From an uncultured bacterium (GTDB taxonomy: Bacteria > Bacillota_I > Bacilli_A > Acholeplasmatales > Anaeroplasmataceae): DNA of 64,000 nt. Of this stretch, positions 7,180 to 43,412 are shown piece by piece. Made by a program: the position numbers and the translations under genes. Each line of letters begins with the position of its first letter. Positions within the stretch are counted from its first letter, which is position 1. Under the pieces are notes generated by a model that was given only the letters and a program-made list of their open reading frames with translations, had not been told where the DNA came from and searched no databases. Location of the stretch: NCBI GenBank assembly GCA_949293265.1, contig CASFCK010000002.1, positions 1-64,000 on the forward strand, read 5' to 3'.

Positions 7180-9783
7180 ATGAAACATTTAAAATCAAAA
7201 GAAATAAGACAAATGTGGTTAGATTTTTTTAAGACTAAAGGACATAGTGTAGAACCTTCAGCATCTTTAATTCCTGACAATGATCCAACTTTACTTTGGA
7301 TTAATGCCGGTGTTGCTCCATTAAAAAAATATTTTGATGGTCGCGTTGTACCAGATAATCATAGAATTACTAATGCGCAAAAATGTATAAGAACAAACGA
7401 TATAGAAAATGTAGGTAAAACAGCAAGACATCATACTTTTTTTGAAATGTTAGGAAACTTTTCAATCGGTGACTATTTTAAGGAAGAAGCTATTGAGTTT
7501 GCGTGTGAATTATTATTTTCTGATAAATGGTTTGGGTTTGCTAAAGATAAAATTTATATTACATACTATAATAAAGATTTAGTAGCTAGAGATTTGTGGT
7601 TAAGACATGGTGTGGCAGAAGACCATTTAATTCCGATGGCAGATAATTTCTGGGAAATTGGGGAAGGACCATGTGGACCAGATACAGAAATGTTCTATGA
7701 TCGTGGTGAAAAATATGATAAACGCGGTAAAGAATTAATAGAACAAGATATTGAAAACGATCGTTTTATTGAAATTTGGAATATCGTATTTAGTCAATAT
7801 AATGCTAAAACAGGAGTAAGAAGAGAAGAGTATCAAGAATTACCTAGTAAAAATATTGATACTGGTTGTGGTCTTGAAAGATTATGTTGTGTTATGCAAG
7901 AAGTTGATACTAATTATGATACTGATTTGTTTATGCCAATCATTAAAAAGACTGAAGAATTAGCTAATGTTAAATATAATGGTCAAATGGCCTTTAAAGT
8001 AATAGCTGATCATGTTAGAACTGTAAGTTTTGCAATAGCTGATGGGGCTACTTTATCAAATGAAGGCCGAGGATATGTTTTACGAAGAGTTTTACGTCGA
8101 GCTATGAAATATGCTAAACAAATTGGTTTAAATCGTCCTTTTATGGCTGAATTGGTTGATGTTGTTATTGAGATTATGGGTGATTTTTACCCACAATTAA
8201 TTAATAAAGCTTCTATAATTAAGCAAATTATTACTAATGAAGAAAATAAATTTTTAGAAACATTAAATATTGGCGAAAAAAGATTAAATGAATTAATTAA
8301 AAAAGGTGAAAATATAAGTGGCAAAGACGCATTTACTTTATATGACACTTATGGTTTCCCTCTTGAATTAACAAAAGAATATGCAAGTGATTTTAATTTA
8401 ACAGTTGATGAAGAAGGCTTTAAAGCAGAAATGGCTTTACAAAAAGAAAGAGCACGTTCTTCGCGTAAAGATGTAGAATCTATGAATAGCCAAAACGAAG
8501 AATATATGCATTACAAAGCTGAATCAAAATTTGTTGGCTATGATAAATTAGAAATTAAAACCAAAGTTATTAAAGTTTTTGCTGAAGGTATAGTTTTACA
8601 AGAAACACCTTTTTATGCTACATCAGGTGGTCAAGTAGCTGATAAAGGTTTAATCAATAAAGTAGAAGTTAAAGATGTTATCAAGCTACCTAATGGCCAA
8701 CATTTACATATTATGGATGTAAATGGTTTCAATGAAGGGCTTGAAGTCATAGCTGAAGTAGATAAAAAATATCGTACGGCAATCACTAAAAATCATTCAG
8801 CTGCGCACTTATTACAAAAAGCTCTACAAGAGGTTTTATCTAAAGATAGTCATCAACAAGGCCAATTAGTTAATGATAAATTTGTTAGATTTGACTTCAA
8901 TAATTATGAAGCTTTATCAGATCAAGACTTATTAAAAATTGAAAAATTAGTTAATGATTATATTAAAGAAAATCATAAAGTTAACATCTCATACATGAGT
9001 ATCGAAGATGCCAAAAAAGCTGGAGCCATGGCCTTATTTAGTGAAAAATATGGCAATTTAGTAAGAGTTGTAGACATGACTATTTCTAAAGAATTATGTG
9101 GTGGCTGTCATGTTTTAAAAACTGGCGATATAGAGGAATTTATGATTGCAAGTTATGAATCTATAGGCTCAGGTATATTTAGAATTACCGGAACTACTAG
9201 TAATGAGGCTTTTAAATTATTAAAAGAAAACTTAACTAATGTGTATAGTGATATCAATTTATTAGTTGCTAAGGCAAACAAATTAATAAATGAACATAAA
9301 AATTTAAATATTAGTAATACAGTTATTTATCAAGAACCGCAATCTAAAGGCTATCAATATATTTTAGATTTACGTAAAGAAGAAACAAGACTACAAAAAG
9401 CACTACATGATTTAGAATTAGAAATTAATAAAGCAAATCGTGAAAATTCAGTTAAAGATTTAGCTAAATATGAATCATTAATTACTAATAATAAATTAGT
9501 AACAGAAATAGATATACCAAAAAATCTTTTAAAAGATGTAGCTAAGACTTTAATGAATAACTACAATTTAGATGTTTGTTTCTTAGCATATAACGATAAT
9601 TCAAGCATTACATTTGTTTGTGCTGCAAAAGGATGTTATAATGCGGTTGAATATATTAAATTAGCTACAAGCATCACAGGTGGCGGTGGTGGTGGCAAAC
9701 CAGATATGGCTCAAGCCGGTGGTAAAGATGTAACTAAGTTAGACTTAGCATTAAATAAAGTTAAGGAAATGTTATGCGCATAA
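7180..9783 (+). CDS. alaS: Alanyl-tRNA synthetase
   Basis: Charges tRNA-Ala and edits mischarged serine or glycine. The class II core occupies the first part (KCIRTNDIENVGK, HHTFFEMLGNFS, GCGLERL). The editing domain has the zinc-binding signature HSAAHLL near residue 545 and CGGCH near 645. The C-Ala region includes the characteristic GGGGGGKPDMAQAGGK. At 867 residues it matches the family. Its last 10 bases overlap ruvX, starting the conserved alaS-ruvX-yrzB cluster. The translation start depends on the unusual distant Shine-Dalgarno described separately. Confidence 0.97.
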   Translation: MKHLKSKEIRQMWLDFFKTKGHSVEPSASLIPDNDPTLLWINAGVAPLKKYFDGRVVPDNHRITNAQKCIRTNDIENVGKTARHHTFFEMLGNFSIGDYFKEEAIEFACELLFSDKWFGFAKDKIYITYYNKDLVARDLWLRHGVAEDHLIPMADNFWEIGEGPCGPDTEMFYDRGEKYDKRGKELIEQDIENDRFIEIWNIVFSQYNAKTGVRREEYQELPSKNIDTGCGLERLCCVMQEVDTNYDTDLFMPIIKKTEELANVKYNGQMAFKVIADHVRTVSFAIADGATLSNEGRGYVLRRVLRRAMKYAKQIGLNRPFMAELVDVVIEIMGDFYPQLINKASIIKQIITNEENKFLETLNIGEKRLNELIKKGENISGKDAFTLYDTYGFPLELTKEYASDFNLTVDEEGFKAEMALQKERARSSRKDVESMNSQNEEYMHYKAESKFVGYDKLEIKTKVIKVFAEGIVLQETPFYATSGGQVADKGLINKVEVKDVIKLPNGQHLHIMDVNGFNEGLEVIAEVDKKYRTAITKNHSAAHLLQKALQEVLSKDSHQQGQLVNDKFVRFDFNNYEALSDQDLLKIEKLVNDYIKENHKVNISYMSIEDAKKAGAMALFSEKYGNLVRVVDMTISKELCGGCHVLKTGDIEEFMIASYESIGSGIFRITGTTSNEAFKLLKENLTNVYSDINLLVAKANKLINEHKNLNISNTVIYQEPQSKGYQYILDLRKEETRLQKALHDLELEINKANRENSVKDLAKYESLITNNKLVTEIDIPKNLLKDVAKTLMNNYNLDVCFLAYNDNSSITFVCAAKGCYNAVEYIKLATSITGGGGGGKPDMAQAGGKDVTKLDLALNKVKEMLCA

Positions 9784-10193
9784 TTGGTTTAGATTTAGGC
9801 TCTAAGAGCTTAGGTATAGCTATATCAGATGAATTAAATATTTTAGCTAGTAGTTTAACTACTTATTATTTTAAAGAAGATGATTATAAAGCAGCCGTAA
9901 CTTATTTACTTGATTTGTGTAATAAATATCAAGTAAAAAAAGTGATTTTAGGTTTACCTAAACACATGAATGGTGATTTAGGAATTAGAGCTAACATTAG
10001 TTTTGAATTTAAAAAAATGATTGAAGACAATTCAAATATTGAAGTAATTTTATTTGATGAACGTTTAACCACATCACTAGTTGATAAAGCAATGTTAGAA
10101 GGTAATTTAAAAAGAAAAAAAAGAAAGGAAAAAAAGGATGAATTAGCTGCGGCTATTATTCTCCAAAATTATTTAGATCGAGGTAAATTATGA
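9774..10193 (+). CDS. ruvX: Holliday junction resolvase-like protein YqgF/RuvX
   Basis: RNase H-fold nuclease linked to pre-16S rRNA 5' maturation and proposed as a Holliday junction resolvase. The N-terminal GLDLGSKSLGIAISDE carries the first catalytic Asp, VILGLPKHMNGD follows in the middle, and LFDERLTTSLVDKAM and the late KDELAAAIILQNYL carry the other conserved residues. The length of 139 is normal. It overlaps alaS by 10 bases and ends with ATGA shared with the next gene, so translation is probably coupled across all three. Confidence 0.93.
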   Translation: MRIIGLDLGSKSLGIAISDELNILASSLTTYYFKEDDYKAAVTYLLDLCNKYQVKKVILGLPKHMNGDLGIRANISFEFKKMIEDNSNIEVILFDERLTTSLVDKAMLEGNLKRKKRKEKKDELAAAIILQNYLDRGKL

Positions 10194-10546
10194 CAGAGTA
10201 TATTATTATTAACGCAGATGGTAAAGAATTAAAATGCCCAATTATTTTCACTTATGAATCAAAAGAATTTGGCCATAAATATGTTATTTTTAGACATCAA
10301 GATTCTGATGAAATAAGTGCGATGATTTATGAAGAAAAAGATGATAAATCAGGCACTCTACTTCCTGTAGAAAATGATGAAGAATGGGATCATTTAGAAG
10401 AGGTAGTAAATCAATATTTCGAGGAACATCAACAACATCATCACCACGATGGCTGTCATTGTGATGATTGTGATGGCTGTGGTTGTGGTCATGATTCAGC
10501 ATGTGATTGTGACTGCGATCATGATTGTGATTGTCATCATGAATAA
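10190..10546 (+). CDS. DUF1292 (YrzB-like) protein with Cys/His/Asp-rich tail
   Basis: Residues 1 to about 80 match the short acidic DUF1292/YrzB family (FTYESKEFGHKYVIF, then acidic segments ending in NDEEWDHLEEVVNQYFEE), which follows ruvX in many Firmicutes; its function is unknown. Unlike YrzB, this protein continues with about 38 residues made almost only of His, Cys, Asp and Gly: I count 10 Cys and 10 His after residue 80, with CHC, CGCG, CDCDC and CDCHH patterns. Such a tail would be expected to bind several metal ions (zinc, copper or nickel). No transporter or metallochaperone gene is adjacent. The start codon overlaps the ruvX stop; the end overlaps trmR by 8 bases. Confidence 0.85.
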   Translation: MTEYIIINADGKELKCPIIFTYESKEFGHKYVIFRHQDSDEISAMIYEEKDDKSGTLLPVENDEEWDHLEEVVNQYFEEHQQHHHHDGCHCDDCDGCGCGHDSACDCDCDHDCDCHHE

Positions 10547-11120
10547 TATAGATGTTATTAAAGAATACGCAAAATTAAATCAGGTTCCAATAATTAATGA
10601 TGAAGGTTTAGCTTTTTTACTAGAACAAATAAATAAATATCAAGTAAAAGAAGTATTAGAACTAGGAACAGCTATCGCTTATTCAGCAATTATGATGGCC
10701 GAAAATGGAGCTAATGTTACAACAATTGAACGTGATAAAGAAATGTATGATCAAGCTATAAAAAATATAGCAGATTTAGGATTAACAACTAAAATTAATG
10801 TTGTTTATAAAGATGCATTAGATGCATTTGCTGATGTAGCCAATAAGGAATATGATATGTTATTTATTGATGCTGCAAAAGCACAATACGAAAAATTCTT
10901 TAATCTTTATACTCCTTTGTTAAAAAAGGGAGGTATTATTATTTGTGATAATTTAGACTTTCATGGCCTAGTAGAAACTGATTTAACACAATATAAAAGA
11001 CATTTAAGACAAATGCTTACAAAAATTAAGAATTTCCGTACTTTTTTAGTAAATAATCCTAACTATATCACAACTATTTATAAAATCGGTGACGGATTAA
11101 GTTTATCAATAAAAAAATAA
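10539..11120 (+). CDS. trmR: SAM-dependent O-methyltransferase, TrmR-like
   Basis: Class I methyltransferase of the YrrM/TrmR type, which in B. subtilis methylates 5-hydroxyuridine at position 34 of tRNAs. Motif I reads VLELGTAIAYSAIMMA and the acidic motif is VTTIERD; metal and active-site residues lie in MLFIDAAKAQYEKFF and IIICDNLDFHG. The frame stays open upstream into the DUF1292 tail, but those residues are a low-complexity shadow. The ATG at 10539 gives the usual N-terminus (193 residues) and an 8-base overlap. A strong terminator follows. The tRNA role is inferred from family and from the alaS-ruvX neighbourhood. Confidence 0.8.
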   Translation: MNNIDVIKEYAKLNQVPIINDEGLAFLLEQINKYQVKEVLELGTAIAYSAIMMAENGANVTTIERDKEMYDQAIKNIADLGLTTKINVVYKDALDAFADVANKEYDMLFIDAAKAQYEKFFNLYTPLLKKGGIIICDNLDFHGLVETDLTQYKRHLRQMLTKIKNFRTFLVNNPNYITTIYKIGDGLSLSIKK

Positions 11121-11125
11121 GTACT

Positions 11126-11162
11126 AATCTCCAAAATAAACTTTTATTTTGGAGATTTTTTT
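11126..11162 (+). terminator. Terminator after trmR
   Basis: Perfect long stem: 11126-11140 pairs with 11143-11157 (core ATCTCCAAAAT / ATTTTGGAGAT), followed by a T run. It ends the alaS-ruvX-yrzB-trmR unit. Confidence 0.9.
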
Positions 11163-11170
11163 AACAATAA

Positions 11171-11199
11171 TTGCTAAAAACAAAATTATGTCGTATAAT
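11171..11199 (+). promoter_or_regulatory. Promoter of the marR-phosphoesterase pair
   Basis: TTGCTA (11171-11176), 17 bases, TATAAT (11194-11199). It lies between the trmR terminator and the marR ribosome site. Confidence 0.8.
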
Positions 11200-11219
11200 G
11201 ATATAAAGGAGTGAGCAAA

Positions 11220-11648
11220 ATGGATCTAAAAAAACGTAAAGACGTTATAGAAATGGTAAAACACCTTTCTTACTTTTTCGATAAATATAAAGATAAATTA
11301 TGTGAACCATATGGCTTATCAAGTGTTCAATCAAAAGTTATTTTAGATGTCTATCACAACGAAGGAACTAAAATAACCGGTATATGTTCGCGCTTGAATA
11401 AAGAAACAAATACGATCTCACCATTAATTAATCGTTTAGTAAATCATGGTTATTTATCAAAGGTAAACGATGTAAATGATAAGCGGGTTTATTATATATA
11501 TTTAACAGATAAAGCCCAAAATATTATGGCAAATCTAATGAACGACATAGAAAAAGCAACGTGGCCACTTTTTGATTCTGTCGAGCCAAACGAATTAGAT
11601 ATGATTTATAAATCACTGAAAATATTAATGAATGTTATAAAGGAGTAG
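11220..11648 (+). CDS. MarR-family transcriptional regulator
   Basis: A 142-residue winged-helix regulator. LSSVQSKVILDVYHNEGTKI begins the DNA-binding core, NKETNTISPLINRLVNHGYL is the recognition helix region, and DVNDKRVYYIYLTDKA forms the wing with the conserved D-x-R. AAAGGAGTG is 8 bases ahead of the ATG at 11220; a GTG at 11211 inside the Shine-Dalgarno is not credible as start. It is followed one base later by a phosphoesterase gene. Ligand and targets are unknown. Confidence 0.88.
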   Translation: MDLKKRKDVIEMVKHLSYFFDKYKDKLCEPYGLSSVQSKVILDVYHNEGTKITGICSRLNKETNTISPLINRLVNHGYLSKVNDVNDKRVYYIYLTDKAQNIMANLMNDIEKATWPLFDSVEPNELDMIYKSLKILMNVIKE

Positions 11649-11649
11649 T

Positions 11650-12180
11650 ATGCGTTATTTAATAGCTTCCGATATCCATGGTTCTTTTCAAGATGCCAAA
11701 TTTATATATAACAAATTCAAAGAAGAAGAATTTGATTACTTGGTTTTATTAGGTGATGTTTTATATCATGGACCACGTAATGATTTGCCTGAAGATTATA
11801 ATCCTAAAGCTGTAATTACCTTATTAAATCAAATAAAAGATAAAATAATTTGTATAAAAGGTAATTGCGAAGCATATGTTGATCAAATGGTATTACAATT
11901 TAAGATCCTAGAATGTCATTTTATAGATTTAGGCACAAAAACATATTACTTATGTCATGGTCATAAATTACTATTTAATAAAGATGATTGTCAAACCAAT
12001 CAAATTGTTTTATATGGTCATTATCACATACCTAGTCTTAAAGTGTATGATGATATAACTTATATTAATGTTGGGAGTATTGCTTTACCAAAGGAAAATA
12101 ATCCTAAAACCTATGCTATTTTAGATGAAAATGGTATTAAAATATTTGATATTAAAGATAATGAACTTTTTTCTTATTAG
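11650..12180 (+). CDS. YfcE-type metallophosphoesterase
   Basis: Calcineurin-like phosphodiesterase of 176 residues. The metal-binding motifs appear in order: ASDIHGS (DxH), LLGDVLYHG (GD), GNCE (GNC/H), CHGHK (H) and YGHYHIPS (GHxH). Members cleave model phosphodiesters; the physiological substrate is unknown. AAGGAG lies shortly before the ATG. It is co-transcribed with the MarR regulator, which may control it. A short terminator begins at its stop codon. Confidence 0.85.
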   Translation: MRYLIASDIHGSFQDAKFIYNKFKEEEFDYLVLLGDVLYHGPRNDLPEDYNPKAVITLLNQIKDKIICIKGNCEAYVDQMVLQFKILECHFIDLGTKTYYLCHGHKLLFNKDDCQTNQIVLYGHYHIPSLKVYDDITYINVGSIALPKENNPKTYAILDENGIKIFDIKDNELFSY

Positions 12181-22744: not shown

Positions 22745-25045
22745 ATGGAAGTTAGACTACAAGATGATTTAATGGTTCTAAATGATAAAGAAATGAACTT
22801 AACTGAGGTTGTAGATAAACTAGCTAATTTAGCAGCAAGTCAAATCGTTGAATATTTTAATAGTATTAATCTAAAATTGCCTAGAGTTTTAAACACAGCT
22901 GCCTTAAGAGGGGTTTTAAATAGCAAGGTTGTTGTGGCAAAAACACTTAATTTAAGCGATGAAATGATGTATCGTTTACGTTTTTATCCTGATTTTAGTG
23001 AATATCAACTACAAGCTTTTTATAGACTAGTTAAAGAAGATGGCATGGATGTTTGTTACAAACAAAATTTATTTAAAGTTATTTTAATGAATGCTAACCT
23101 TCTTAATCTATCAGATGAACAAGTAACAAACCTTTTAAATATTGTTGCTTTACCATATGAAGATTTCGATACATTTGAAAATTTAGTATTACCTTTATTC
23201 TATGATTTTAATAAAGATTTTGATGGTATTCGCAAAGAAACAATAGTCAATGTAATGCGTAAGAGTGCTACGAGTCAAGATATTAGAGATTTAGGTAAGA
23301 AATATGATATTTCTATTCCTAAACGTTTAAAAAGAGATGAAATGCAAGTTCTTATTGAAGAAGGCTTACGTAAACAACATAAATTAACAGTTGAAATGAA
23401 GGAAAAATTAGATAAATTACCTATTATTAACCTTCAAAGAGTAGCTAAACAAAATGGCATTAAAGTTTCTGTTGATTTGAAAAAAGAAGATTTAATTGCT
23501 TACTTATTAAATGAAGTTGATAAAGCTAAGTTTGATACAAGACCACGCTTAAAATATGCAACTGATTTAGGTGATGGATTCGTCTTTGATTTAGCATATG
23601 TAATGGAAATAGAAGAAATTGAAGAATTTGTTAAAGAAGAAGACGGAGCTTCTGATGTCAAAGTTGAAGAACCTGAAGTTGTTAAAGAAGTTAAAGTAGT
23701 AGAACCTGTTAAAGAAGAAAAAGTGGTTGTTGAAGAAAAAGTTGAAGAACCTGAAGTTGTTGAAGAAAAGGTTGAAGAAACTAAGGTTGTTGAGGAAAAA
23801 GTTGAAGAAGCTAAAGTAGTAGAACCTGTTAAAGAAGAACCGGTTGTAAAAGAAGTTATTGTTGAAAAGCAATGCGATAAGACAGAAATTATAGAATTAG
23901 TAACTAAATGTTTAATTGATGTTATTAAAGAAGTTAGACCAATTTTAACTCAACCAAAAGAACCAGCTCCAGCTCCAGTTATAAACATTTATAATAATGA
24001 AAATAAAGAACCAGTTCCTGCTGAAGTTAAGGTAGAAGAAACTCCTAATTTAGTAACTTATCAATATAATAATTTTGATGAACAAGTATCACCTAAGTTT
24101 GATTCTAAAGTAGCTAATATAATGGCTAATTCAGATTATTTAACTTTAAAGAAAAACATTGAGACTGTAAATGCTGAACTTGTAAACAAAGTTCCATATG
24201 TTGCTCAACCACAATTTATTGCAGTTCCATATCCTTGTCATTTACCTAATTTCGCTACTAATGTTGGTGTTGCTCCTGAAGTTGTAGAAAAACCAGAAGA
24301 AAAACCTGCACCAGTAGTTGAAGAAACAGTTACTGAAGAAGTAGTTGAAAAAACACCAAAGAAGAGATTAACTCAAAAAGAAAGAAATCAAAATATGAAG
24401 GCAGCTAGACTAGCTAAAAAAAATAAAAAGTTAGGTATAGTAGAAGAAGTACCAACTGAAGAAGTTCCAAGTGGAAATGGTACACGCTTTGTTATTCCTG
24501 CCCAAGTGATTCCGGCTAATCAAACTGCACCTTCACAAGTTGAAGAAACTGTTCCAGCTAATATTGTCATTATGACTGAGGGAGGAGTTCCAACATCTGT
24601 GCCAGTTGAATCTCCCAGTAACAGACAAGTAGTAGTTAACAACAAAATTGAAGAAAAAAATGCTAAGAAAGCTTTAAAAAAACAAGCTAAAATTGAAAAA
24701 AATCAATTAATAAAAAATAGAACAAAAATGAACCAAGCATTACGTACAGGTTTTGCTAACGGTTGTGATCCAGTATATTTTGATCAAACCATGCGCCTTC
24801 AAGAATATAAATTAAAAGTTAGAGAAAACGCAGTTATGAGAAGTGAATCAAATAGAAGATTTGTTGGTACAATTTTGAAAACTATCTTAATAATTGTGGG
24901 ATTACTAGTTGCCGCATGGATAGTAGTTGGAATTATATATGGATTTAATGATAATCCAGATGAAAATAATTTCTTCTATCAAATAACTAAAGTTATATCT
25001 GATTTTGTACGTGATATAAGAACCAATTTTGGTGAAAATAAATAA
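22745..25045 (+). CDS. Large membrane protein with SAP-like segments and acidic Val/Glu/Lys repeats
   Basis: Function not recognised. 766 residues. About 1-170: helical N-terminal region. About 174-210 and 224-258: two helix-loop-helix stretches resembling SAP/HeH or Rho-N nucleic-acid-binding folds (DIRDLGKKYDIS and NLQRVAKQNGIKV). About 305-375: low-complexity repeats of VVEEKVEEP type. About 395-560: Pro/Ala/Val/Glu-rich linker. About 560-700: Lys-rich region, including a KKRLTQKERNQNMKAARLA segment and KKALKKQAKIEK. About 708-732: one transmembrane segment, then a short tail. The topology suggests a large cytoplasmic part tethered to the membrane. It sits between ricA and mutS, where B. 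subtilis has the unrelated cotE. It has its own promoter. Confidence 0.85.
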   Translation: MEVRLQDDLMVLNDKEMNLTEVVDKLANLAASQIVEYFNSINLKLPRVLNTAALRGVLNSKVVVAKTLNLSDEMMYRLRFYPDFSEYQLQAFYRLVKEDGMDVCYKQNLFKVILMNANLLNLSDEQVTNLLNIVALPYEDFDTFENLVLPLFYDFNKDFDGIRKETIVNVMRKSATSQDIRDLGKKYDISIPKRLKRDEMQVLIEEGLRKQHKLTVEMKEKLDKLPIINLQRVAKQNGIKVSVDLKKEDLIAYLLNEVDKAKFDTRPRLKYATDLGDGFVFDLAYVMEIEEIEEFVKEEDGASDVKVEEPEVVKEVKVVEPVKEEKVVVEEKVEEPEVVEEKVEETKVVEEKVEEAKVVEPVKEEPVVKEVIVEKQCDKTEIIELVTKCLIDVIKEVRPILTQPKEPAPAPVINIYNNENKEPVPAEVKVEETPNLVTYQYNNFDEQVSPKFDSKVANIMANSDYLTLKKNIETVNAELVNKVPYVAQPQFIAVPYPCHLPNFATNVGVAPEVVEKPEEKPAPVVEETVTEEVVEKTPKKRLTQKERNQNMKAARLAKKNKKLGIVEEVPTEEVPSGNGTRFVIPAQVIPANQTAPSQVEETVPANIVIMTEGGVPTSVPVESPSNRQVVVNNKIEEKNAKKALKKQAKIEKNQLIKNRTKMNQALRTGFANGCDPVYFDQTMRLQEYKLKVRENAVMRSESNRRFVGTILKTILIIVGLLVAAWIVVGIIYGFNDNPDENNFFYQITKVISDFVRDIRTNFGENK
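23656..23865 (+). repeat. Degenerate tandem repeats inside the 766-residue protein gene
   Basis: In-frame repeats encoding VVEEKVEEP, VVEPVKEE and variants. One stretch encoding KVVEPVKEE occurs twice almost identically (about 23692-23718 and 23813-23839). Copies differ mainly at third positions and Glu/Pro/Thr/Ala swaps, pointing to an old protein-level expansion rather than a mobile or CRISPR repeat. Confidence 0.8.
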
Positions 25046-40676: not shown

Positions 40677-40952
40677 ATGGAGCATACTTATCGTAAAGAA
40701 GAATTTAAAAATAAATTAAATAATCGCATTAATAGAATAAGTGGTCAACTTGAAGGCATAAAAAGAATGATTGAGGAAGATAGATATTGCCCAGAAATAT
40801 TAAATCAATTAAGAGCCTGTATTAATTCATTAAAAAGTTTAGAAGTTGTAATTTTAAATAATCATTTACAAAACTGTGTTGTTAATAAAATACAAAATGG
40901 AGACTTAAAAGTTTTAGACGAAATAAGTGAATTATTAAGGAGAGAACTATGA
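40677..40952 (+). CDS. csoR: Copper-sensing repressor CsoR
   Basis: A 91-residue DUF156-family all-helical repressor. The Cu(I) ligands of CsoR are present: Cys38 in DRYCPEIL, and His63 and Cys67 in NNHLQNCV (the H-x3-C pattern), with the preceding Tyr37. This set separates copper CsoR from FrmR and RcnR, which differ in ligands. It is the first gene of an operon with copA (start overlap of 4 bases, ATGA-type), and a G-rich operator lies in its own promoter, so autoregulation is expected. Confidence 0.92.
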   Translation: MEHTYRKEEFKNKLNNRINRISGQLEGIKRMIEEDRYCPEILNQLRACINSLKSLEVVILNNHLQNCVVNKIQNGDLKVLDEISELLRREL

Positions 40953-43384
40953 AACAAAAGTTCGATGTTAAAGGAATGACGTGTGCCGCTTGCCAAGCTC
41001 ATGTCTTAAAAGCAGTTAGTTCAGTTAAAGGTGTAAATGAGTGTAATGTTAATTTATTAGCTAATAATATGTTTGTTACATATGACGAAAATGTTTGTGA
41101 TAGTAAAAGCATAATTAAAGCTGTTTCTAAAGCGGGATATAAAGCTGTTTTACCTGGTGAAAAACAAGAAAAAGAAGATAAAGACAACGCTTTGTTAAAG
41201 CTAATTATAGCTTTTATTTTCTTGTTGCTTTTAATGTATGTTTCAATGGGACATATGCTAAATTTACCATTACCAGGTTTCATAAATGATAGTGCACTAA
41301 ATTATGCCTTTACCCAATTATTATTAATTTTGCCGATTGTGTTTATATATCGTAATTATTATGTTAGTGGATTTAAGAAATTAATAAAAGGTCCTAATAT
41401 GGACACATTAATAGCTATAGGCTCAACTGCCTCTTTATTATATGGTGTTTTTGCAATCTATATGTTAGGATATGGTTATTACATTAATGATGAGACTATA
41501 ATTGCAAATTATAGACATAACTTATATTTTGAATCAGCTGGTATGATCTTAACTTTAGTATCACTTGGCAAATATTTAGAAGGTTTATCTAAGAAAAAAA
41601 CAACAAAAGCAATCGAAGAGTTAATTGATTTAGTACCAGATACAGCAACAATATTAAGAGATGGGAAAGAAATTGTTATTAAGGCAAGTGAAGTAAAAAA
41701 AGATGAAGTAATCATAGTTAAAAAGGGTGAAAAAATACCAGTTGATGCAGTAATTATCGAAGGTAGTGGTTCATTTTATGAAGCTAACATTACTGGTGAA
41801 AGTATGCCAAAAGAAAAAACAGTTTCAGCAAATATCTATGCTTCAACAATCATGGAAGCCGGATATATAAAAGCTAAAGCAACTAAAGTTGGAGAAGATA
41901 GTTCGATCTGGCAAATTATTAAATTAGTAGAAGAAGCTAGTGAATCAAAAGCACCAATTTCAAAAATGGTTGATAAGGTTTCTTTCTTCTTTGTTCCGAC
42001 AATTATCTTAATCAGCATAGTCGTTTTAATTACTTTTTTATCACTTAATTATAGTTTTGAACTAGCCTTTAATTTTGCAATTAGTGTATTAGTAATTGCT
42101 TGCCCATGTGCACTTGGTTTAGCAACACCAGTAGCAATAATGGTCGGAACAGGTAAAGGAGCGAAAAACGGTCTATTAATTAAAAATGCAGCTGTTTTAG
42201 AAAATGCAGGACACATTAAAAAAGTGATTTTAGATAAAACAGGAACTATAACTAACGGTATGCCTATTGTCACAGATTTTAAAGGTGATAAAGAAGCATT
42301 AGATATTTTATATAGCTTAGAAAACAAATCAGAACACCCACTAGCTAAAGCTATAATTGACTATGCAAAATTAGAAAATGCTAACTTATATGAAGTTAAA
42401 AACTTTAAGGCCTTAGATGGTCTTGGTCTAGTTGGAGAAATAAAAAAACAAACATATTATGTTGGTAATATGAATTTAGCTAAACAATTAGCAATTAATA
42501 CGACTAAAATTGAAAGTGAAATAAATTCTTTAGCTAATAATGCTAAAACTCCACTCTTACTATTAACAAAAGATAAAATATTAGGATTAATAGCTGTAAA
42601 GGATGAAGTAAAAAAATCTAGCAAAGAAGCTATAAAATTATTAAATGAATTAAAAGTTGAAGTCATAATGTTAACTGGTGATAATGCACAAACTGCTAAA
42701 GTTGTAGCTGAAGAAGTTGGAATTAAAAAAGTAGTAGCTAATGTTTTGCCAGAAGATAAATTAAAGATAATAAGAGAACAACGTCATGATAAAAAACATC
42801 TAGTAGCTATGGTAGGTGATGGTGTAAATGATGCTCCAGCTCTAACCGAAGCTGATTTAGGTATAGCAATAGGTGGTGGTTCTGATATTGCGATTAATAG
42901 TTCAGATATAATTTTAGTTAAGAATGATTTATTAGATGTAATAAATGTAATAAAATTATCAAAAAGAATAATGTTAACAATCAAATTAAACTTATTTTGG
43001 GCTTTTATCTATAACGTTATAGGTATAATACTCGCTTCTGGTATTTTTTATCAAAGTTTCAATATTAGTTTAAATCCGATGATTGCTTCATTATGTATGT
43101 CATTTTCTAGTGTATTTGTAGTGTTAAATGCTTTAACAATAAACTTATTTAAAGTCAAGGACATTAAGGAGGAGGTGAAATTTGTGGAATATAGACTTTC
43201 TGTAGAAGGTATGAGCTGTATGCATTGTCAAAAACATGTTAAAGAAGCTTTAGAAAAAGTTAAAGGTGTAAAACAAGTAGAAGTTTCCTTAGAAAAAAAA
43301 GAAGCTTTAGTAACATGTAAAGATAAAGTCACTAAAGAAGATTTAATTGAAGCTGTAAAAAATGCCGGTTATGAGGCTTTTTAA
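40949..43384 (+). CDS. copA: P1B copper-exporting ATPase with HMA domains at both ends
   Basis: Membrane Cu(I) efflux pump. Residues 1-67 are an HMA domain with GMTCAAC (Cys12, Cys15). The transmembrane part contains the CPC copper site in IACPCALGLATP near residue 385. TGES is in ANITGESMPKE; the phosphorylated Asp is in LDKTGT near 428; HP is in SEHPLAKAI; GDGVNDAPAL closes the P domain. Unusually, a second HMA domain (residues about 746-811, GMSCMHC with Cys757 and Cys760) follows the last transmembrane helices; most CopA proteins have HMA domains only at the N-terminus. This C-terminal domain is the size of free CopZ and has its own ribosome site (see nested feature). Confidence 0.95.
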   Translation: MKQKFDVKGMTCAACQAHVLKAVSSVKGVNECNVNLLANNMFVTYDENVCDSKSIIKAVSKAGYKAVLPGEKQEKEDKDNALLKLIIAFIFLLLLMYVSMGHMLNLPLPGFINDSALNYAFTQLLLILPIVFIYRNYYVSGFKKLIKGPNMDTLIAIGSTASLLYGVFAIYMLGYGYYINDETIIANYRHNLYFESAGMILTLVSLGKYLEGLSKKKTTKAIEELIDLVPDTATILRDGKEIVIKASEVKKDEVIIVKKGEKIPVDAVIIEGSGSFYEANITGESMPKEKTVSANIYASTIMEAGYIKAKATKVGEDSSIWQIIKLVEEASESKAPISKMVDKVSFFFVPTIILISIVVLITFLSLNYSFELAFNFAISVLVIACPCALGLATPVAIMVGTGKGAKNGLLIKNAAVLENAGHIKKVILDKTGTITNGMPIVTDFKGDKEALDILYSLENKSEHPLAKAIIDYAKLENANLYEVKNFKALDGLGLVGEIKKQTYYVGNMNLAKQLAINTTKIESEINSLANNAKTPLLLLTKDKILGLIAVKDEVKKSSKEAIKLLNELKVEVIMLTGDNAQTAKVVAEEVGIKKVVANVLPEDKLKIIREQRHDKKHLVAMVGDGVNDAPALTEADLGIAIGGGSDIAINSSDIILVKNDLLDVINVIKLSKRIMLTIKLNLFWAFIYNVIGIILASGIFYQSFNISLNPMIASLCMSFSSVFVVLNALTINLFKVKDIKEEVKFVEYRLSVEGMSCMHCQKHVKEALEKVKGVKQVEVSLEKKEALVTCKDKVTKEDLIEAVKNAGYEAF
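43184..43384 (+). CDS. Nested CopZ-like copper chaperone from internal start in copA
   Basis: In the copA frame, GTG at 43184 begins a 66-codon stretch encoding a complete CopZ-type domain (VEYRLSVEGMSCMHC to KNAGYEAF). It is preceded by AAGGAGGAGGTGA at 43166-43178, which includes an 8-base perfect match to the 16S 3' end (GGAGGTGA); from the core GGAGG to GTG is 8 bases. The Shine-Dalgarno is built from codons AAG GAG GAG GTG for K-E-E-V, whereas AAA and GAA dominate in the rest of the gene, hinting at selection for the RNA signal. No separate copZ gene is adjacent. Expression of the short product is inference. Confidence 0.5.
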   Translation: MEYRLSVEGMSCMHCQKHVKEALEKVKGVKQVEVSLEKKEALVTCKDKVTKEDLIEAVKNAGYEAF

Positions 43385-43412
43385 CTAGAAGTTTTCTTCT
43401 AGTTTTTTTTAT
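43383..43412 (+). terminator. Terminator after csoR-copA
   Basis: AACTAGAAG, loop TTTT, CTTCTAGTT, T-run; it overlaps the copA stop codon. Confidence 0.88.

Follow-up and report, generated by a model that had tools for sequence, protein, structure and literature searches.

A candidate copZ nested in frame within copA in a member of the Anaeroplasmataceae and in related fused genes

In the first 64,000 nucleotides of contig CASFCK010000002.1 (assembly GCA_949293265.1), from an uncultured bacterium of the family Anaeroplasmataceae and referred to here as the window, the copper pump gene copA carries an in-frame Shine-Dalgarno (SD) sequence and GTG codon at the head of its C-terminal HMA domain. 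Comparison with related sequences indicates that this one gene very probably yields both a pump of 811 residues that ends in a tethered CopZ and a free 66-residue CopZ made by internal initiation. A preliminary description of the window had offered, as alternatives, dual output by internal initiation and fusion of a copA-copZ pair with the copZ ribosome site kept; the evolutionary evidence favors both together, with split and ATGA-overlapping relatives identified and the site kept across 170 fused genes beyond chance.

In the proposed mechanism, copA and copZ would have merged into one open reading frame (ORF) with retention of copZ's own translation start. Ribosomes starting at the ATG at 40949 would make the full pump ending in the tethered CopZ-like domain, while other ribosomes would bind the SD at 43166-43175 and start at the GTG at 43184 to make the free CopZ-like protein of 66 residues. 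This protein would bind Cu(I) via CMHC and pass it to the pump, with the chaperone-to-pump ratio set by the strengths of the two ribosome sites. We infer initiation in the cell, a stable copper-carrying product and the setting of the ratio.

The Internal Start Site in copA

copA lies at 40949-43384 on the forward strand as an ORF for an 811-amino-acid Cu(I)-type P1B ATPase, scoring 524.3 bits against TIGR01511 (cut-off 397) with CPC and DKTG in its translation, and the protein has one HMA domain at each end. The N-terminal HMA domain is encoded at 40961-41143 (+; PF00403, 59.5 bits). The linker from the last transmembrane (TM) segment to the C-terminal HMA domain (43151-43183, +), delimited from the codon listings of 41 family members with the end of the TM segment placed by eye, holds the SD and varies in length and sequence among relatives. 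The SD itself, AAGGAGGAGG (43166-43175, +), is in frame within copA and is predicted to pair with the anti-SD at -13.1 kcal/mol, the copA frame over 43166-43186 reading AAG GAG GAG GTG AAA TTT GTG. The last of these codons is the internal GTG (43184-43186, +), at a place where 157 of 170 fused genes have a start codon, and the eight bases first described between SD and GTG are confirmed, AAGGAGGAGG ending at 43175. From the GTG, the putative internal copZ (43184-43384, +), nested in frame in copA, runs for 66 codons to a TAA at 43382-43384 and would encode a CopZ-like HMA protein of approximately 7.5 kDa with the motif GMSCMHC. In keeping with the claim that these last 66 codons form a full CopZ-like HMA domain, the product matches PF00403 at 61 bits, above the gathering cut-off of 24.8, with the GMxCxxC pattern, and it groups with the free CopZ proteins of relatives.

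The SD had been singled out as among the strongest in the window, and at -13.1 kcal/mol it was the best of 466 interior in-frame starts, with only one of 55 ORF starts stronger. The runner-up among the interior in-frame starts was a GTG at 24599 (+) within another ORF, with an SD of -10.4. A chance origin of the internal site was rejected by this window ranking and by the random-window control (see below). The codons that make the SD are, as described, rare synonyms, with copA using AAA 76 times and AAG 13 times and GAA 48 times and GAG six times (AAA 1593 and AAG 304, GAA 1294 and GAG 145 in the ORFs of the window), while GTG accounts for five of its 72 Val codons. With the peptide fixed and codons resampled according to usage in copA itself, an SD of at least this strength was obtained at p = 0.0075. 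No match to 16S rRNA was found in the window's own assembly; the 16S tail of a family member (G008) includes CACCTCCTTT. No mRNA-structure signal was detected at the internal site, the region folding less well than shuffles (z +1.31), with 183 of 200 shuffles folding at least as well as the RNA around the site, a point in favor of internal initiation.

Alternatively, a short mRNA from a promoter inside copA could be translated from the internal start, such that the level of free CopZ would be controlled transcriptionally. Plus-strand promoter-like matches are present inside copA at 42433, 42481 and 42657, but the region holds 17 promoter-like matches against 18.7 in shuffles and therefore gives no signal, while an internal promoter would alter the source of the mRNA only and leave the start site unchanged. 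This explanation is unlikely.

Conservation of the Internal Site in Relatives

A copA with a C-terminal HMA domain was found in seven of the eight genomes of the genus, the remaining genome (G006) having no copA match, and all seven retain an SD with an in-frame start codon, ATG or GTG, opening the C-terminal HMA domain although the linker peptide differs. Across the family, 44 of 55 genomes had a copA match, of which 41 were complete at the 3′ end; rows in which copA was cut (G027, G042, G047) were dropped. The C-terminal position of the HMA domain, initially regarded as unusual, proved otherwise, since all 41 of the 3′-complete family genes have one, as does the Archaeoglobus CopA according to the title of a paper on it. 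By a rule that took the best in-frame start lying 6-16 codons upstream of the first Cys and asked for an SD energy of -5 kcal/mol or below, the internal site was present in 34 of the 41 family fused genes, with L069 removed from the site count as a pattern match inside a TM segment. The possibility that homologues keep the peptide KEEV with AAA and GAA codons and no SD, raised as grounds for abandoning the proposal, was contradicted, with the linker peptides changing (for example KEEV, KEVT, KGGN and ERSD) while the SD and start stay.

A wider set of fused genes was collected with a profile (A1) of the C-terminal region, which contains protein only and no DNA; it was built from 12 genes, each of them with the site, and may favor their relatives. 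In a sample of 395 genomes of the class, the search gave 91 matches from which 66 new loci were taken, and in a collection of named genomes the best 80 of at least 306 loci were taken. In total 176 fused and 28 split copA loci were read (L176 and L211, which were cut, gave no copA), and removal of six duplicate linkers left 170 distinct fused genes, which are not a census because the searches sampled genomes or took the best matches. The start in each gene was the best-scoring one in an 11-codon window, and the same rule was applied to control windows.

An in-frame start was found at the expected place in 157 of the 170 genes (152 ATG and 5 GTG), 9-16 codons before the first Cys, with 79 at -11 and 50 at -12. 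The SD energy was at or below -5 kcal/mol in 153 genes, -8 in 130 and -11 in 70, whereas among 3400 random windows from the same genes only 280 reached -5 and 35 reached -8; likewise, 1.2% of other in-frame ATGs (n = 3400) reached -8. A core was found in 155 genes, of which 114 had a spacing of 7-8 nt from SD to start. At the sequence level, the fused genes thus conserve an in-frame internal start preceded by a properly spaced SD. The mean SD energy of the internal sites (-9.8) was close to the -9.3 averaged over 32 free HMA genes downstream and was stronger than that of copA's own start (-7.3, n = 191). As a further yardstick, among 13 linkers between two N-terminal HMA domains, five had an in-frame start and none had an SD at or below -5.

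Could the site be a by-product of the peptide? If a linker rich in Lys, Glu and Gly were itself selected, SD-like sequence would follow from its codons, and the linker peptide alone does yield a mean of -5.75 kcal/mol under synonymous redraw. The observed mean was -9.77 (Wilcoxon 6e-27), such that codon choice adds 4 kcal/mol on average, and the linkers vary in both sequence and length. Furthermore, the core GG falls in codon phases 2, 0 and 1 in 89, 60 and 6 genes and is translated for the most part as Lys-Glu, Gly or Arg; the occurrence of the SD in all three phases, and so over different residues, indicates that nucleotides rather than peptide have been kept. The start codon at fixed spacing is left unexplained by the peptide, and this explanation is extremely unlikely.

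The SD also falls in the stretch joining the last TM segment to the HMA domain, where an SD-like sequence could pause ribosomes and allow the last TM segments to insert before the HMA domain folds, with no initiation taking place. Pausing, however, requires no start codon, and an ATG or GTG follows mostly 7-8 nt on, at a distance from the first Cys that matches free CopZ, in which the start is at -11 in 15 genes, -12 in 10, -9 in four and elsewhere in three. In addition, the family genes that lack the site have a free copZ (see below), and pausing as the sole function of the site is very improbable indeed.

The nested arrangement is apparently widespread. Among 69 distinct named loci, the site was found in 50 of 54 from Bacillota, in all seven from Spirochaetota and in the single locus from each of seven further phylum labels, although a single label may be wrong, metagenome bins making up most of the named records. 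The layout is present in named strains of Anaerostipes hominis, Eubacterium callanderi, Holdemania massiliensis and Acetatifactor muris, among others. In E. callanderi (L143) and an Acetobacterium sp. (L152) the in-frame ATG is preceded by an SD of moderate strength (-6.2). The sole Bacteroidota fused copA among the named loci (L108) keeps the internal ATG behind an A-rich, SD-free leader; Bacteroidota commonly initiate translation without an SD.

Taken more broadly, the nested copA/copZ with an internal ribosome site is somewhat more probably than otherwise a common design for copper export in gut Bacillota, Spirochaetota and scattered phyla, one that would have arisen more than once by removal of a stop codon and been kept for providing a pump with a tethered chaperone along with a free one, two ribosome sites fixing the ratio between them, as a counterpart, at the other end of the protein, to the frameshift in Escherichia coli copA.

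Origin of the C-Terminal Domain and the Route to Fusion

When HMA domains were assigned to their nearest relatives by best alignment score, the nearest relative was of the same kind for all 170 C-terminal HMA domains and all 192 N-terminal HMA domains, while 21 of 22 free CopZ proteins beside split copA genes were nearest to C-terminal and not N-terminal domains. By this class-level score the C-terminal domain is nearer to free CopZ than to the CopA N-terminal HMA domain. Since the C-terminal HMA domains group with free CopZ, capture of a CopZ, and not duplication of the N-terminal domain, is the most likely source of the CopA tail.

A search for relatives with split copA and copZ, as suggested in the preliminary description, found both separate and ATGA-overlapping pairs in the same order. 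Of 20 matching loci that belong to the order but not to the family, 19 were read; G151 was dropped as cut. In two of the 19 the genes are fused in frame with an in-frame ATG (G150, SD -5.8; G016, SD -8.8). In the other 17 copA stops before any HMA domain. A separate copZ begins 6-25 nt past the copA stop in seven of the 17 (for example G065, G067, G068 and G104), in five the two genes overlap at an ATGA or GTGA and the SD is in copA codons (G019, G153, G154, G155 and G159), in two they overlap by 22 nt (G156 and G157), and in three no copZ is nearby (G015, G079 and G080). The loci L059, L061, L062 and L063 (ATGA) and L072 (GTGA) show such an overlap of the copA stop with the copZ start, the copZ SD being inside copA codons.

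Loci with such stop/start overlaps are possible intermediates between separate and nested copZ, and loss of a stop in split or overlapping neighbors of these kinds would produce an in-frame nested gene. On the larger FastTree tree the state changes between fused and split nine times, and because the direction of change was not inferred on that tree the order of these stages is one that we infer.

Fused Genes Lacking the Site and the Distribution of Free copZ

A free copZ was sought within approximately 450 nt after copA, and genome-wide, among the matches listed, with PF00403 in the family together with 12 further genomes. The seven family genes lacking the internal site (L029, L033, L040, L045, L048, L049 and L050) each directly precede a separate HMA gene of 66-68 amino acids, whereas among 33 family genes with the site only L053 has an HMA gene downstream, and this is an HMA of another type. 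With L026 excluded because its contig ends there, absence of the site was thus associated with an adjoining free copZ in the family (7/7 vs. 1/33, Fisher p = 4e-7, uncorrected for kinship), a value that overstates the evidence because on the family tree the site changes state only five times and there are just three well-supported independent pairs. In three of the site-less genes (L029, L033 and, more weakly, L045) the SD of the downstream copZ lies within the last codons of the fused HMA domain, as if nesting begins anew one domain later.

In the wider set, 165 fused genes had downstream sequence (L175 was dropped as short, while L026, L094, L129 and L194 were cut downstream), and a free copZ followed in eight of 16 without the site compared with two of 149 with it (Fisher 5e-8). 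The two genes with both are L053 and L218; these and L127, in which the SD is weak, have just downstream of the fused copA an 82-87 amino acid HMA protein of a distinct type (GMxCxMCExHxxDAxR). Of the eight site-less genes with a free HMA gene, only L127 is outside the family.

A number of observations weigh against the proposed dual output. After relatedness was taken into account the trade-off between internal site and free copZ was not significant (sign test, median p 0.25 and 0.125), and outside the family eight site-less fused genes have no copZ adjoining copA, two of which (L087 and L108) keep the ATG. As a general rule, a strict trade-off in which the lack of an internal site means a free copZ therefore fails, with L127 alone set against eight genes with neither outside the family and too few independent pairs on the trees, and it is seen in the window's family only. 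One genome that is 97% complete (G238) had no HMA match beyond the two in CopA, from which it follows that a free CopZ is dispensable there. The 66-residue product falls below the NCBIfam CopZ cut-offs (82.6 bits against 85 for NF047957, 63.2 against 91 for NF033795 and 62.6 against 95 for NF033794) and is for this reason termed CopZ-like rather than a formal CopZ member. Gene by gene, the synonymous-codon test was modest (median p 0.13, with p < 0.05 in 52 of 157 genes), because K/E/G-rich linkers favor SDs anyway. Lastly, 17 of the 170 fused genes have no start with an SD energy at or below -5.

That these 17 genes manage without a start with a usable SD, and that the likely origin of the site is visible in the split relatives, would also fit an SD and start that are an unused relic of the fusion, with the C-terminal HMA domain working only within the pump. 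A relic should, however, decay, and this site persists in 153 of 170 genes and, within the named records, across nine phylum labels, in differing codon phases and yet mostly at 7-8 nt spacing, with a mean SD stronger than copA's own. A relic is accordingly very unlikely, and internal initiation remains the preferred explanation.

Comparison With Known Systems

The copA gene of E. coli reportedly uses programmed -1 frameshifting to give both CopA and CopA(Z) (Meydan 2017; Drees 2017), one copA gene thus supplying a free HMA copper chaperone besides the pump, as is predicted for the window. The two differ in that the E. coli chaperone is the N-terminal HMA domain released by a frameshift and an early stop, while in the window it would be the C-terminal CopZ-like HMA domain with its own SD and start. 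Bacillota have separate csoR-copA-copZ operons encoding a Bacillus-type CopZ. The window shares their gene order and HMA type, and some relatives within its taxonomic order retain copZ as a separate or overlapping gene, but in the window no stop precedes copZ, and translation continues into it to give the C-terminal domain of the pump.

Internal in-frame starts that give a C-terminal part of a protein alongside the full-length form are described for Cas11b within cas8b (PMC11899642), the CBD of the CTP1L endolysin (PMC4777826) and the short form of SpaO (PMC12132427). The arrangement in the window resembles these; however, the short forms of Cas11b and the endolysin assemble with the full-length protein or complex, whereas the short form proposed here would be a diffusible metallochaperone serving the pump.

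A pump with metal-binding domains (MBDs) at both ends has a parallel in the CopA of Archaeoglobus fulgidus, which has two such domains (PMC11970713), one of them C-terminal according to the title of a paper, and so HMA-type domains at both ends; there a separate CopZ is described, in contrast to the CopZ-like domain nested in copA in the window. Activity of the Archaeoglobus pump was unaffected by loss of the MBDs, and CopZ handed copper directly to the membrane domain, which the isolated MBDs could not do in vitro (PMC11970713). These results suggest a use for the free form; by analogy, a tethered domain may be no substitute for a free chaperone, since it is CopZ and not the isolated MBDs that delivers copper to the membrane domain in Archaeoglobus. 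No description of a copZ start inside copA was found among the titles and abstract openings listed, mostly from outside subscription journals.

If the proposal is correct, many genomes seemingly without copZ would make CopZ from within copA and annotation would miss a copper chaperone. It would also provide a second and mechanistically different case of one copA giving a pump and a chaperone, with extant stages from operon pair to nested gene (separate, ATGA overlap, in frame), and would allow the importance of the ratio of chaperone to pump to be tested cleanly.

Neighboring Features and Other HMA Genes of the Genome

Immediately upstream of copA lies a gene for a csoR-type metal-sensing repressor of 91 amino acids (40677-40952, +; Pfam Trns_repr_metal, 92.9 bits, cut-off 22.8), which is joined to copA by an ATGA in which the csoR TGA overlaps the copA ATG. 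A terminator-like hairpin was located 3′ of copA (43383-43404, +) by a consensus scan, with two such sites found against 1.2 expected.

The window's own genome (97% complete) has one other HMA match at E <= 0.001, at G000:C19:9720, with the motif LDCANCA. The presence of a separate CopZ elsewhere in this genome was rejected, the other HMA having the LDCANCA motif and sitting in a Zn/Cd-type locus. Its neighbors are an ArsR-like repressor ORF, a ZIP-like permease ORF and a second P-type ATPase, as labeled by reading of their sequences. At this locus (G000:C19, approximately 9200-11800; L003, L016) the HMA is a separate small ORF (MKKVYKIKNLDCANCARK...) before a P-type ATPase of approximately 630 amino acids, judged to be of Zn/Cd type in the same way. 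The locus mirrors the copA case, with the HMA standing apart, and a small HMA ORF adjoins the approximately 630-amino-acid P-type ATPase in all eight genomes of the genus.

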